64,000 nt of DNA from contig JAUNSR010000001.1 of the NCBI GenBank assembly GCA_030539115.1, forward strand, positions 47,830-111,829. Reading direction: 5' to 3'. A program made the position numbers and the translations under genes. The notes beneath the pieces are model-generated. The model saw only the letters and a program-made list of their open reading frames with translations. It was not told where the DNA came from and ran no database searches. This DNA comes from Bacteroidales bacterium (GTDB taxonomy: Bacteria; Bacteroidota; Bacteroidia; Bacteroidales; JAUNSR01). Shown one piece after another: positions 43,697 through 49,526 of this stretch; within the stretch, counting starts at the first letter, position 1; every line of letters starts with the position of its first letter.

Positions 43697-44020
43697 TTCG
43701 TATGATATAAAAGGTTTATTATTGATTTAGCAATTAATGTGTTTTATCGATTTTTTCAAAAATATAAATCATCTGTGTTTTTGTTTTGATAGAAATGATA
43801 TAAATTTATAAAAATATGATATTAATATACCATTATGAATATTTTTTAATCTTGAATTTTTATTTTCTTCATGATTTTAGAAAAAAATATTGTAATATAG
43901 CAGTTAAAACGACGTCTTATTTATATATTTTATTTATCACCACATTGATTATATACATTTTTAAATAAAAATACAAGTATATAATTTATGACTTATCATA
44001 TTTTAATCTTCTAATTGATT
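43697..44020. other. Divergent region, rhamnosidase and HU genes
   Basis: AT-rich. Apart from the -7 box at 43757-43764 nothing is recognised; GACGTC at about 43911 is the only GC-containing palindrome. Confidence 0.4.
43757..43764 (-). promoter_or_regulatory. -7 box of the rhamnosidase gene
   Basis: TATTTTTG on the minus strand fits TAnnTTTG, about 60 bases before the start codon. No clear -33 element. Confidence 0.4.
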
Positions 44021-44275
44021 ATGGATCACAAAAAGTTTATGCTTGAACTTCAGAAAAGGACAGGGCTTGACAAAAGCAGACTTGTTTCTTTGTTAAAGAC
44101 TACTCAAGAAGTGATTTATGAACAACAAATAAATCTTAATTCAATATATCTTGACGGCATTGGAGAAATTGTGCCTAAAAAAAGACTTGAATTTATATAC
44201 AAAAATCCCAGAAATCAGGAAGTTGTATTATACCCTCCAAGAATAACCGTTCATTTCAAACCACAAATTTCTAAA
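44021..44275 (+). CDS. HU-family DNA-binding protein, short
   Basis: 84 aa, starting at ATG 44021 (an upstream TTG was rejected). It has the HU/IHF plan: two N-terminal helices (MLELQKRTGLDKSRLVSLLKTTQEVIYEQ), a GIGEIVPKKR turn in place of the usual GFGTF, and an arm containing NPRNQEVVLYPP with the expected NP pair. Arms are shorter and less basic than in canonical HU. It lies 10 bases before the larger HU-LysM gene and is probably co-transcribed, so the two could form a heterodimer. Confidence 0.85.
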
Positions 44276-44285
44276 TAATCAAAAA

Positions 44286-45536
44286 ATGAACGAAACAGCA
44301 GGTAAAAACAGACTTAAACAAATCATTATAAACGAAAGTGGAATGGAACCTGCTTTTGTCAATATTTTTATTGACAATATGCTGGATATTATTGCCGAAT
44401 CGATTGAAAACGGTGAAAATATTTCCATTGAAGGAATCGGTGAATTTCGTACTGTTTCGTTTGAAAAAGGCAACAAAAAAAGAGTTGTTTTTATTCCAGA
44501 CCAAATTATGCGGTCCAGAGTCAACGCTCCTTTTGAAGCCTTTGAGCCTTTAGTTATAGAAGAAGCTCATCCTGAAAATCACATAAGCGTGATTAATTCA
44601 TCTCAGGATGAGGAAGAAAATAAAATTGAGAAACTTAATAGTCAGCTTATTGTTAATAATACTGATTCTGATGATATTCTTCAGAATAATTATTCAAACA
44701 ATGAGACGCCTATGGACAAAAATGAAAATGAAAGAGATCCTCATCATTCCGAAAAATGGGAAGAAAAGGAAAACAAACAATATGAAAAGCAAATCGAGGA
44801 GGTTGAAGCTCCGGTAGAGGTTTATGATGGAGATGCCAATCTCACTGAAGAGGTGGACCAAGCTGTTGTGAAGCCTTATAAAGAGATTGAAAAAGAGATC
44901 GGTTGTAAAGATGAAAGCTGTTCTCCGATTGGTTTTGGGAACAGAAAGTCAACACTTATTGGAGCGGTGATTCTTCTTGCAATAGTCATTCTTGGCGCAA
45001 TCATTTATTTTGTTTATGTTGTTGAAAAAGATGATAAACCAAATCAGAATATTGGCTTAAAAGCAGAGGTCATTACGCCAAAGACAAATATCGAAAACGG
45101 AAAAGATGCCAAAACATTTTCACTTGAGGACAGTTTGTCTAATGATAAAAAACTTGATTTGGTGCAGCAGAATGCTGCATCAAATCAAACTGAAAAACAA
45201 TCTGATTCAGTTGTTTCAGTTATTAAACCCAATAGTAATTCTCTTTCAACCACCGATAATGAGAATAAGCCTAATAAAGGAGATTTTAATTTTCCTATTA
45301 ATATAGTGCTTAATAATGGAGGGAGATTAACATTACTTTCTCAGAAATATTATGGTCACAAAGCCTTTTGGGTATATATATTTCTTGAGAATAAGAATAA
45401 TTATTCAGATCCAAACAATATTCCATCAGGTGCTGAACTTACAATTCCATCACCTGAAAAATATAATATTAATGTTCAAAACACTGCTTCTTTAAATAAG
45501 GCAAAACAAATGGCAGTTGAAATACTATCCAAATAA
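44286..45536 (+). CDS. HU-like domain, membrane helix and LysM-like domain in one protein
   Basis: 416 aa. Residues 1-95 are an HU-like DNA-binding domain (IEGIGEFRTVSFEKGNKKR, then PDQIMRSRVNAPFEAF). Residues about 100-215 are an acidic, Glu/Asn-rich linker. A membrane helix lies at about 222-245 (IGAVILLAIVILGAIIYFVY). A Ser/Asn/Lys-rich extracytoplasmic linker leads to a C-terminal LysM-like domain at about 343-392 (LTLLSQKYYGHKAFWVYIF, then IPSGAELTIP). The topology would put DNA binding in the cytoplasm and peptidoglycan binding in the periplasm. Similar HU-membrane fusions exist in Bacteroidota with SPOR domains; role in chromosome-envelope tethering is inference. Confidence 0.85.
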   Translation: MNETAGKNRLKQIIINESGMEPAFVNIFIDNMLDIIAESIENGENISIEGIGEFRTVSFEKGNKKRVVFIPDQIMRSRVNAPFEAFEPLVIEEAHPENHISVINSSQDEEENKIEKLNSQLIVNNTDSDDILQNNYSNNETPMDKNENERDPHHSEKWEEKENKQYEKQIEEVEAPVEVYDGDANLTEEVDQAVVKPYKEIEKEIGCKDESCSPIGFGNRKSTLIGAVILLAIVILGAIIYFVYVVEKDDKPNQNIGLKAEVITPKTNIENGKDAKTFSLEDSLSNDKKLDLVQQNAASNQTEKQSDSVVSVIKPNSNSLSTTDNENKPNKGDFNFPINIVLNNGGRLTLLSQKYYGHKAFWVYIFLENKNNYSDPNNIPSGAELTIPSPEKYNINVQNTASLNKAKQMAVEILSK

Positions 45537-45607: not shown

Positions 45608-46471
45608 TTACATTTTCAAATAAAAATCTTTTGTTAAAGAGATATATTCATTTGTGTAATGTTGTCTTTCTATCTCTATTGAAAACGTATCAGAAATTAA
45701 TACAAACTCAGAATCAGAAAAAGAAAATTCAGCCAATACTCTTTTTATCGGGGAATTAGGATTGCCTTTTACAAAAGATTTTCTTTTACAAAAGAGGAGA
45801 TTCTCTTTACACAAAGCTTCAATTTTCCCGTCCGCTTCATAAGGATATATTAAAGATAAAATCCCTTGAGAGGCTAATAATGAAGCACTTTTCCTTATCA
45901 AAGTTTCATAAGAAAGGGAGTCTGTATGGCGGGCCTTTGTGCGTTTGTTGCAATCAGATTTTAGAGAATTCTCGAAATAAGGGGGATTTGAAACTATTAA
46001 ATCATATTTTTTTTGCTCTCTGCTCCCACTCTTATTGTTTAATTCTGCACATGCGGCTTCTAATATATCAATATTTCCATTTTGAGAAGAGTTATTTATG
46101 GGGATGAAATCCTCAATAGAAGAATTAATCACATTTAATCTCTCTTTCCAAGGAGAATTAAAAAAATTATTTTTTGCACAAGAAAAAGCATCCAAATCAA
46201 TTTCCACAGCATCTATTTTTGCATTCTCAAATCTTTGAGCTATCATTAAAGATATAAGACCACTCCCGGTTCCTATATCCAGAACATTAAACATAGCATT
46301 TTCAAATTTCAATTCTTTACAAACATCACTTGTAATATTAGCTTTTTCATTATCGGCACGGCAATCTTTATAACACCATGCACCAATAAGAACACCATCA
46401 GTACCAACTTTCATTGCACAATCAGAATGATCAACAATAAACTGTTTAAATTTGAAGAAAGAATTTGACAT
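45608..46471 (-). CDS. trmN6: tRNA1(Val) adenine-37 N6-methyltransferase
   Basis: 287 aa. Methylates A37 of tRNA-Val using SAM. The start FKFKQFIVDHSDCAMKVGTDGVLIGAW is the family N-terminus. Motif I VLDIGTGSGLISLMIAQRF is at about 62-80 and motif IV NPPYFENS, with its catalytic NPPY, near 160. It is about 40 residues longer than E. coli YfiC, with short acidic inserts after GAWCYKD and before the NPPY motif. Single gene. Confidence 0.9.
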   Translation of the reverse strand: MSNSFFKFKQFIVDHSDCAMKVGTDGVLIGAWCYKDCRADNEKANITSDVCKELKFENAMFNVLDIGTGSGLISLMIAQRFENAKIDAVEIDLDAFSCAKNNFFNSPWKERLNVINSSIEDFIPINNSSQNGNIDILEAACAELNNKSGSREQKKYDLIVSNPPYFENSLKSDCNKRTKARHTDSLSYETLIRKSASLLASQGILSLIYPYEADGKIEALCKENLLFCKRKSFVKGNPNSPIKRVLAEFSFSDSEFVLISDTFSIEIERQHYTNEYISLTKDFYLKM

Positions 46472-46870
46472 ATTAAAAATGCATATCTGTTAATAGAGTT
46501 ATAACCTTTAAAACTCATTTCCAAGATGGATAAAGATTGAAATTAATCTATTGGGAAATTTTATTTTATATTTAAAATACAAAGGAACAAAAAAAATTTC
46601 GTCAACTTCATCTAAATACTTAACTTTGGCATGAGTATTGCATACTTACAATAAAGTATAAACTAATAATAACTAAATTGAAAAAAAGATTATTGCGCCT
46701 ATCTCACATTATTATATAATGCTTTATTTTTAAACTTATAATTAATAAGTTTACCTCTTTAGCCATTTTTGTAGCTTATATTTAAATATTATTTACCATT
46801 TGGCTTAATCTTCTCCAACTTTTAATATAGTTCATCAAATGAAATTGCCGCACCTCACTTAAAAACGAGA

Positions 46871-46993
46871 TGCCTGATAAATGGTTTACAAAGCGTTCAT
46901 TTGTATATTAATATTAAAAATAAAATAAAAGCAAAATTAAATTGCCATAACTTAAAAAGATGATATGCCTAATAAATGGCAGATAAATGGCAG
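46871..46993. repeat. TGCCTRATAAATGG direct repeats before lon
   Basis: TGCCTGATAAATGG at 46871-46884 and TGCCTAATAAATGG at 46966-46979, plus an exact 11-base tandem ATAAATGGCAG at 46972-46982 and 46983-46993. The last copy ends 37 bases before the lon start codon and directly before the putative -7 box, an activator-site position. Confidence 0.6.
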
Positions 46994-46998
46994 ATTTA

Positions 46999-47006
46999 TA
47001 CTTTAG
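46999..47006 (+). promoter_or_regulatory. Candidate -7 box of lon
   Basis: TACTTTAG, one mismatch from TAnnTTTG, 24 bases before the start codon. No -33 TTTG, but direct repeats lie where a -33 element would be, consistent with an activated or alternative-sigma promoter. Confidence 0.3.
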
Positions 47007-47030
47007 TGTTAAAAATTAAATTATATAAAA

Positions 47031-49526
47031 ATGAATAAATCAGTTTATATTGCTGACAATATGACATATTATAATTCTGCAGTACACTTCGCAGATGATC
47101 TATCTTTTGACAATGATGATCAACAAGGGGCTACAATGCCTATTTTCGCTGAAATAAATGGAGAGCCTGACACCAATTGCAAAGGATTGAAAGAGGAGTC
47201 TCTTCCAATCCTGCCTCTTCGCAACATGGTTTTGTTTCCGGGAATTGCATTGCCTGTTTCGATAGGGAGAAGCAAATCTCTTAAACTTATTAAAGATGCA
47301 AATACAAACAAGAGTTTTATTGGTGTTGTTTGTCAAATTGACAGTTCTGTTAATGAGCCGGGATTAAAAGATCTTTATCATATAGGTACTGTAGCAGAGG
47401 TTCTCAAAGTGCTTGAAATGCCCGATCAAACTACAACGGTAATTCTTCAAGGGAAAAAACGTTTCAATCTTAATGAGATTGTTGACACTAAACCATATTT
47501 AAAAGGCAATATTTCTCTTTGTGAAGAGATAAATCCATCTGACATGGATAAAGAATTTGATGCTCTTATCGATTCTATAAAAGATATTACCCTTCGTATT
47601 TTTAAAAATATGACAGATGGTCCCAAAGAGATGCTTTTTGCTCTTAAAAATATTGATCATCCTGTATATCTTGTTAATTTCCTTTGTTCAAGTCTTCCAG
47701 GCACTCCTGAAGACAAGCAAAAACTTCTTTCTTTAGACAATACAAAAGATAGAGCTTTTGCTCTTTATAAAAAGCTAAATAAAGATATTCAGATTTTAGA
47801 GATAAAAGCTGACATTCAGAATAAAACAAGGGAAGATATCAATCAGCAACAAAGAGAGCATTATCTTCAAGCTCAAATGAAAACCATCCAAGATGAATTG
47901 GGTGGCTCTCAAGAGGAAGAGTTTGCGGAACTTAGGGCAAGAGCCTCAAAAAAAAGATGGAGTCCTGAAGTTGCTGCTGTTTTTGAAAAAGAGATGAAAA
48001 AGCTTGAGCGTATTCATCCTCAAATGCCTGACTTCTCTATTCAATACAACTATATTCAAACAATGCTTAATTTGCCTTGGGGTGAATATTCAAAGGATAA
48101 TCTTAATCTTAAGAACGCTCAAAAGATTCTTGACAAACAACATTACGGACTTGAAAAGGTTAAAGACAGGATTCTTGAGCATCTTGCAGTTCTTAAACTT
48201 CGTGGTGATTTCAAATCTCCTATTATTTGCCTTTATGGCCCTCCCGGAGTTGGTAAAACATCTTTAGGTAAATCTATAGCCGAAGCTTTAAAGCGCAAAT
48301 ATGTTAGAGTTTCTTTTGGAGGTCTCCATGATGAAGCTGAGATTAGAGGACATAGAAGAACTTATATTGGAGCTATGCCAGGTAGGATAATTAATGCCAT
48401 TATAAAAGCCGGCACTTCCAATCCTGTCTTTGTGCTTGATGAGATAGATAAAATTGGCAACGATTTTAAGGGCGATCCGGCATCTGCATTACTTGAAGTT
48501 TTAGACCCTGAGCAAAATTCCACTTTTCATGACAATTATCTTGACATAGATTATGACTTGTCAAATGTTATGTTTATTGCAACTGCAAATAATATAAACA
48601 ATATCCAGCAACCACTTCTTGACAGAATGGAGATGATTGATATCAGCGGATATATTATTGAGGAAAAAGTAGAAATTGCAAGAAGACATCTTTTGCCTAA
48701 ACAGCTTGAGGCTCATGGTATAAAGAAATCTGATTTCGATATTCCAAAGAAAACAATGGAAGATATAGTTACTTATTATTCCCGTGAATCTGGAGTGCGT
48801 CAACTCGACAAGAAAATTGCTCAAATAATGAGAAGGCTTGCAAGAAAGATTGCTTCTAAAGAGGAATATCCTAAGATTTTGCTTCCCGAACATCTTCAAG
48901 AATTTTTAGGTCAAAAGGAATATAATCCCGATGTTTATGAAGGCAACAACTATGCAGGTGTTGTTACGGGATTAGCATGGACAGCTGTTGGAGGCGAAAT
49001 TCTTTTTGTTGAATCAAGTCTGACAAAAAGCAAAGCTGAAAAGCTTACTCTAACAGGTAATTTAGGCGATGTAATGAAGGAATCTGCTGTTCTTGCTCTT
49101 CAATATATCAAAGCTCATTCTTCATTATTGGGAATAAATGAAGAAGTTTTTGATAAATGGAGTGTCCACATACATGTTCCTGAAGGAGCTATTCCAAAAG
49201 ATGGTCCATCAGCCGGCATTACTATGGTTACATCTTTGGCTTCTGCTTTCACCCAAAGAAAAGTAAGAGCTAACTTGGCTATGACGGGAGAAATCACTCT
49301 TCGTGGAAGAGTTCTTCCTGTTGGTGGAATTAAAGAAAAAATTCTCGCCGCTAAAAGAGCCGGAATAAAAGACATCGTTCTTTGCATCGATAACAAAAGA
49401 GATATTGAAGAGATAAATGAAACTTATCTTAAGGGATTGACTTTCCATTATGTCAGAGATATCTCTGAGGTGCTTGACTTTGCTCTTCTTAATGAAAAAG
49501 TAGACAAGCCATTAGAAATTGCCTAA
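47031..49526 (+). CDS. lon: ATP-dependent protease Lon
   Basis: 831 aa, full length. A 50-residue N-terminal extension precedes the LON substrate domain ([19 protein letters not shown]). The AAA+ domain has Walker [16 protein letters not shown] and Walker B VFVLDEID. The protease domain has the catalytic Ser in DGPSAGITM (about residue 727) and Lys in [14 protein letters not shown] (about 769). It degrades damaged and regulatory proteins. Single gene with strong terminator. Its upstream direct repeats suggest regulation, possibly heat or stress dependent. Confidence 0.97.

Follow-up and report, generated by a model that had tools for sequence, protein, structure and literature searches.

The closest described systems to the unit reported here are the HU-CCDC81/SPOR proteins of Bacteroidota (PF18174, PF18175, PF05036), which likewise bring together two HU domains, one membrane segment and a C-terminal peptidoglycan-type domain. 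Bacterial CCDC81-like HU proteins were reportedly predicted by Burroughs et al. in 2017 (Cell Cycle) to act in chromosome partition, and we take the proteins with the order HU-CCDC81_bac_1/bac_2, membrane segment and SPOR to be the group treated there. The window, a stretch of 64,000 nucleotides on contig 10 of a Bacteroidales genome (3.37 Mb in 89 contigs), holds a second design of this kind that is less widespread; contig 59 of the same genome also encodes a protein of the first design (L108:466-1680, membrane segment assigned by eye). PF18174 was found in 120 of the 148 genomes drawn from the order, with the SPOR part checked in L108 only, whereas the LysM profile of the window-type unit, at E 1e-12, was found in 26; in a sample of the phylum this profile matched 2 of 198 genomes, namely the source genome and one weak match of 56 bits. 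The HU-CCDC81/SPOR proteins carry both HU domains, of the CCDC81 type, in one chain ending in SPOR, whereas the window unit is of the PF00216 type, is divided between two genes and ends in LysM. For the window protein, PF18174 was not listed among the matches, PF18175 scored 13.8 bits against a cut-off of 35, and no C-terminal SPOR was found by Pfam or fold matching, the domain in that place being LysM. With HU and IHF the unit has in common the fold, a probable dimer-type pairing and, on its short HU protein (HU1), an arm and basic residues; it differs in membrane anchoring, and its anchored subunit (HU2) is without the arm proline or the arm. A literature search, with most subscription papers outside its coverage, returned no recognised description of an HU-TM-LysM protein, and in a Parabacteroides distasonis record neither gene has an annotation beyond "HU family DNA-binding protein".

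The features of the pair are collected in Table 1. The fused gene had been proposed in a first-pass annotation made from the raw sequence, and its open reading frame, strand and coordinates were all reproduced; the spacing to the short HU gene, given there as 10 bases, is 7 bases. For HU1 the start was taken as the ATG at 44021, the called TTG start at 44015 adding two residues. The neighbors of the pair in the window are a small-domain methyltransferase and a Lon-like protease (named from its sequence), with the methyltransferase on the other strand downstream of the pair and then Lon (45608-49526). In two congeners (L016 and L015) the methyltransferase gene lies ahead of the pair and shares its strand, and the gene after the pair is TrmD-like (named by eye). 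Because the position and strand of the methyltransferase and the identity of the following gene differ, the block around the pair is rearranged between the window and these congeners.

Table 1. Features of the HU1/HU2-LysM pair, in window positions
Feature	Position	Strand	Evidence or remark
HU1, short HU protein, 85 aa	44021..44278	+	PF00216 E 3.8e-10; conserved upstream partner; charge, NP arm
Fused gene, HU2 - acidic linker - membrane helix - linker - LysM, 416 aa	44286..45536	+	
HU2 domain, residues 1-92 (fold about 5-83), arm shortened	44286..44561	+	PF00216 E 2e-5; model; fold match
Cytoplasmic linker, residues 93-221, net charge -20, predicted disordered	44562..44948	+	pLDDT mostly <50
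Membrane helix, residues 222-247	44949..45026	+	Mean hydropathy 3.07 over 19 residues; helix in model
Periplasmic linker, residues 248-337, about 90 residues, predicted disordered	45027..45296	+	
LysM fold, residues 338-388	45297..45449	+	Model, Kbp structure match, profile match
C-terminal helix after LysM, residues 400-416	45483..45533	+	Kept in relatives

For assessment of conservation, a single-sequence scan gave matches in 13 of 60 genomes, some of them LysM-only in other proteins; alignment A1 left out three loci that are not the fused gene (L011, L013 and L018), and six others (L010, L014-L016, L019 and L020) are repeat views of loci that were already included. A scan of 84,980 species genomes returned 297 relatives, and the best 80 of the 297, all from Bacteroidales or Bacteroidota, were analyzed. 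Among these best 80 the fused gene is present in 77, and is cut by a contig end in two (L072 and L083); the remaining match (L087) is a different protein. A short HU gene lies directly upstream in all 69 relatives of the best 80 with separate genes and enough upstream sequence, a count that leaves out L041, which starts 82 bases from the locus end; the gaps between the HU1 and HU2 genes run from -26 to +28 bases, and the genes overlap in 57 of the 69. Many relatives have the order ftsY, rimO, HU1, HU2-LysM, MoxR ATPase, DUF58 and VWA genes. The two-gene unit is conserved in gut and oral Bacteroidales. Chance, pseudogene and mobile-element readings of the locus were rejected on the conserved frame, synteny, domain order and partner gene, and on the scarcity of matches elsewhere: 50,697 phage records gave one, to the LysM part, and 72,556 plasmid records gave one, which is chromosome-like. 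A 218-kb "plasmid 89" of Parabacteroides distasonis (L115, NZ_OY725834.1) carries a UvrD-type helicase, ftsY, rimO, the HU pair and bat-type genes, and looks like a piece of chromosome.

The topology of the fused protein was examined from hydropathy, flanking charge and an AlphaFold model built on alignment A3 (47 sequences: the window and 46 of the 77 fused relatives). The single membrane helix called in the first-pass annotation is found in the model, at residues 222-247 and as the only one, and exactly one segment exceeded the hydropathy limit in 77 of 78 proteins (the 77 relatives and the window), with a second in none. Flanking lysine and arginine residues are more numerous on the HU side of the helix than on the LysM side in 60 of the 78, equal in eight and fewer in ten (means of 4.1 on the HU side and 2.1 on the LysM side); as the 78 rows are related to each other, they do not count as independent tests. 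A negative net charge is carried by the HU-side stretch of 77 of the 78 proteins (median -27), and the acidic linker that had been proposed for the window protein was found with the charge given in Table 1. By the positive-inside rule, the charge around the helix favors HU inside and LysM in the periplasm, as the first-pass annotation had supposed; for the window protein itself the count is tied, at 3 on either side, and the orientation is taken from the relatives and from the acidity of its HU-side stretch. Over the 78 proteins the periplasmic linker is 27-175 residues long (median 77); its shortness in two relatives, at 27 and 31 residues, and the tie in the window protein are points against the tether discussed below. 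The flexible chain of 90 residues in the window protein should be long enough to reach peptidoglycan.

No match to the Pfam LysM model was obtained with the single window sequence, searched to E 1, and NCBIfam NF008399, the LysM of Kbp, matched it weakly (E 0.0021). NF008399 was matched at E <=0.01 by 44 of 47 orthologues, and a profile of 11 orthologues matched Kbp (7pvc) at E 1.3e-7. In the model the domain has the order strand-helix-helix-strand with pLDDT of 95-98 in most blocks and is followed by a helix at residues 400-415, and residues 337-391 superimpose on Kbp (7vcm) with Z 8.4 and an rmsd of 0.9 Å over 55 residues, the LysM matches as a group having Z 8.4-8.5. The claim of a LysM domain would have failed on a predicted structure without this fold; the structure was examined, and the fold is there. 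The absence of other folds from the fold searches was not counted as evidence. Although the LysM fold is common to Kbp (YgaU) of E. coli and the window-type protein, the latter differs in its membrane-helix anchor, a conserved FWxYIY core and an extra C-terminal helix, and it has no BON domain: none was among the Pfam matches of the window protein, and the linker preceding LysM is disordered in the model. The nearest LysM folds are those of Kbp and of phage or injection-system baseplates, which are not proven peptidoglycan binders. The same LysM subfamily also occurs in a periplasmic setting, at the C terminus of the outer-membrane-type protein of L087 (4540-6225), which has a barrel and an OmpA domain.

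The HU fold claimed for the fused protein was borne out by PF00216 (25.2 bits against a curated cut-off of 22.4; HU1 scored 40.3 bits against the same cut-off) and by the model, in which the HU fold covers residues 7-83, block means of pLDDT are 81-96 over residues 1-90 and the best match among solved HU proteins is 5fbm_A (Z 10.2, rmsd 1.6 Å, 77 residues). In the HU2 domain the shortened arm is followed by a conserved NxPFxxF motif. The two heads are unlike in charge and arm. HU1 of the window has a net charge of +6, in the range of the canonical HUs of the source genome (+4 to +6), and an arm with NP; over 70 HU1 proteins, the window included, the median net charge is +5, the arm-tip proline is present in 63, and positions 53-55, 58, 68, 74, 80, 86 and 90 are basic in 89-97%. 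HU2 of the window has a net charge of -2 to -3, depending on the domain boundary, and the two-stranded arm with its tip proline is deleted in both alignment and model. Over 78 HU2 proteins, the window included, the median net charge is 0, and 66 were scored long-armed and 12, the window among them, short-armed, this scripted scoring having called long two proteins (L053 and L096) that are armless by eye; valine or isoleucine occupies the arm-proline position in 62 of the 66. The source genome also encodes two similar HU-related proteins of 128-133 aa with a common N-terminal extension, MAAKYDL... (L105 and L106).

Because the basic residues and the NP arm are on HU1, and HU2 is neutral to acidic without an arm proline, the DNA-contacting subunit in this organism, if DNA contact occurs, is most likely HU1 rather than HU2. 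A heterodimer would have one arm only, since HU2 of the window is armless. The architecture read from the raw sequence by the first-pass annotation was correct, but its assignment of DNA binding to the fused HU itself was not supported, given the charge of that domain, the loss of the arm in the window's genus and the replacement of the arm proline in long-armed relatives.

Pairing of the two HU proteins was addressed through seven relatives among the best 80 of 297, five Porphyromonas and two Dysgonomonadaceae (L066 and L069), in which both HU domains lie in one chain (HU1-HU2-TM-LysM). A first alignment of these with HU2-LysM rows (A4) placed HU2 onto HU1 and was dropped in favor of A5, in which the one-chain rows are aligned with HU1 rows. 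In a tree of HU2 and LysM the one-chain forms need two origins, being joined in no bootstrap tree, with long branches flagged. Across its two HU domains, the AlphaFold model of L066 matches single-chain IHF (2iie; Z 8.7, 131 residues, 3.8 Å). That natural one-chain fusions exist, and that this one models like single-chain HU-type pairs, argues that HU1 and HU2 would pair as a dimer, in agreement with the earlier suggestion that the short HU is the partner of the fused one. The fusions, which arose in two lineages, count against the reading in which HU2 homodimerizes and HU1 is a separate nucleoid protein sharing only the operon. So do opposite charges at equivalent positions: position 51 is acidic in 93% of HU1 and basic in 94% of HU2, and position 67 is basic in 70% of HU1 and acidic in 83% of HU2. 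We consider homodimerization improbable.

The one-chain relatives also bear on what the head contacts. Their HU1 half is acidic in all seven (-2 to -8), their HU2 half is negative in six and +3 in L096, and the conserved basic positions are eroded. Since both halves are largely acidic in these forms, DNA binding would not be conserved everywhere, and residue charges give good evidence that DNA binding by the head can be lost with pairing, membrane helix and LysM retained. In the fold search the one-chain HU pair (L066, residues 1-169) scored highest against 9io5_T, from the gliding ATPase complex of Mycoplasma mobile (Z 13.0, 144 residues), suggesting that this chain may also have an HU-like pair. 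Doublet-microtubule chains align with the L066 pair as well (Z 10.1-12.2); the CCDC81-type HU pairs of such doublets are eukaryotic and structural, without a membrane or LysM part. PMC10105768 names a CCDC81 homologue as an inner-junction protein of the 8G2Z doublet, which may be the chain that matches L066.

These observations suit a reading in which the HU pair docks a protein and not DNA, so that the unit would join peptidoglycan to some cytoplasmic protein, such as a factor for division, shape or envelope maintenance, much as HU domains of CCDC81-like proteins serve as structural parts of microtubule doublets. Most one-chain relatives have two acidic heads, HU2 is armless and neutral to acidic in the window's genus, and doublet-microtubule proteins, which are structural and are not known to bind DNA, rank high among the fold matches of the pair. 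However, the basic residues and arm proline of HU1 are kept in the window and most relatives, which is expected mainly for DNA contact, and we regard a docking head as possible but less likely than not.

Computation gives the domain folds, the single membrane helix, the conserved pairing, the natural fusions and the charge asymmetry; most likely, the unit consists of a trans-membrane LysM anchor that bears a heterodimeric HU head. A tether between DNA and cell wall is the best, although unproven, reading for this organism, and is doubtful for the one-chain relatives. In such a tether, separate HU1 and the HU2 domain would dimerize into a head on the cytoplasmic face of the inner membrane, HU2 mainly supplying dimerization and the anchor. 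The basic HU1 with its proline-tipped arm would contact DNA with no sequence specificity, LysM would bind peptidoglycan at the end of the flexible periplasmic linker, and nucleoid and cell wall would thereby be joined through a loose, distributed tether that might have a part in chromosome positioning or segregation. The chromosome link through HU1 is plausible in this organism on residue composition and arm. For the loose nucleoid-wall tether as a whole, with the head on DNA via HU1 and LysM reaching peptidoglycan, we put the chances at about even, held there mainly because the one-chain heads are acidic.

A further reading is that of a membrane-bound regulator, in which LysM senses the state of the wall and the HU head alters local DNA structure or transcription near the membrane. 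A one-pass protein with an HU head and an exported sensor-like domain would fit it, as would the MoxR, DUF58 and VWA (bat-type) genes that adjoin the pair in many relatives. HU heads, however, lack sequence-specific DNA contacts, a signal would pass poorly through the long disordered linkers that flank the helix, and the pair of the window is not beside those genes; we think regulation of this kind quite unlikely.

How the chromosome is positioned in Bacteroidota, and whether DNA and wall are physically joined, are open questions on which the unit bears, and a short two-gene unit in culturable gut commensals such as Parabacteroides distasonis makes the question of DNA-wall joining testable. 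The unit may link DNA, or another cytoplasmic thing, to the cell wall, and the HU fold may be shifting from DNA binding to protein binding in this family. More boldly, and with somewhat less than even confidence, it could be a dedicated Gram-negative DNA-wall tether in which an armless, anchored HU recruits an armed, soluble HU and LysM grips peptidoglycan, a device that in Porphyromonas and Seramator would have been welded into one chain, its HU head turned from DNA to a protein partner. If that is true, Bacteroidales would have two HU-based trans-membrane links in parallel, with SPOR at the end of the first and LysM at the end of the other.
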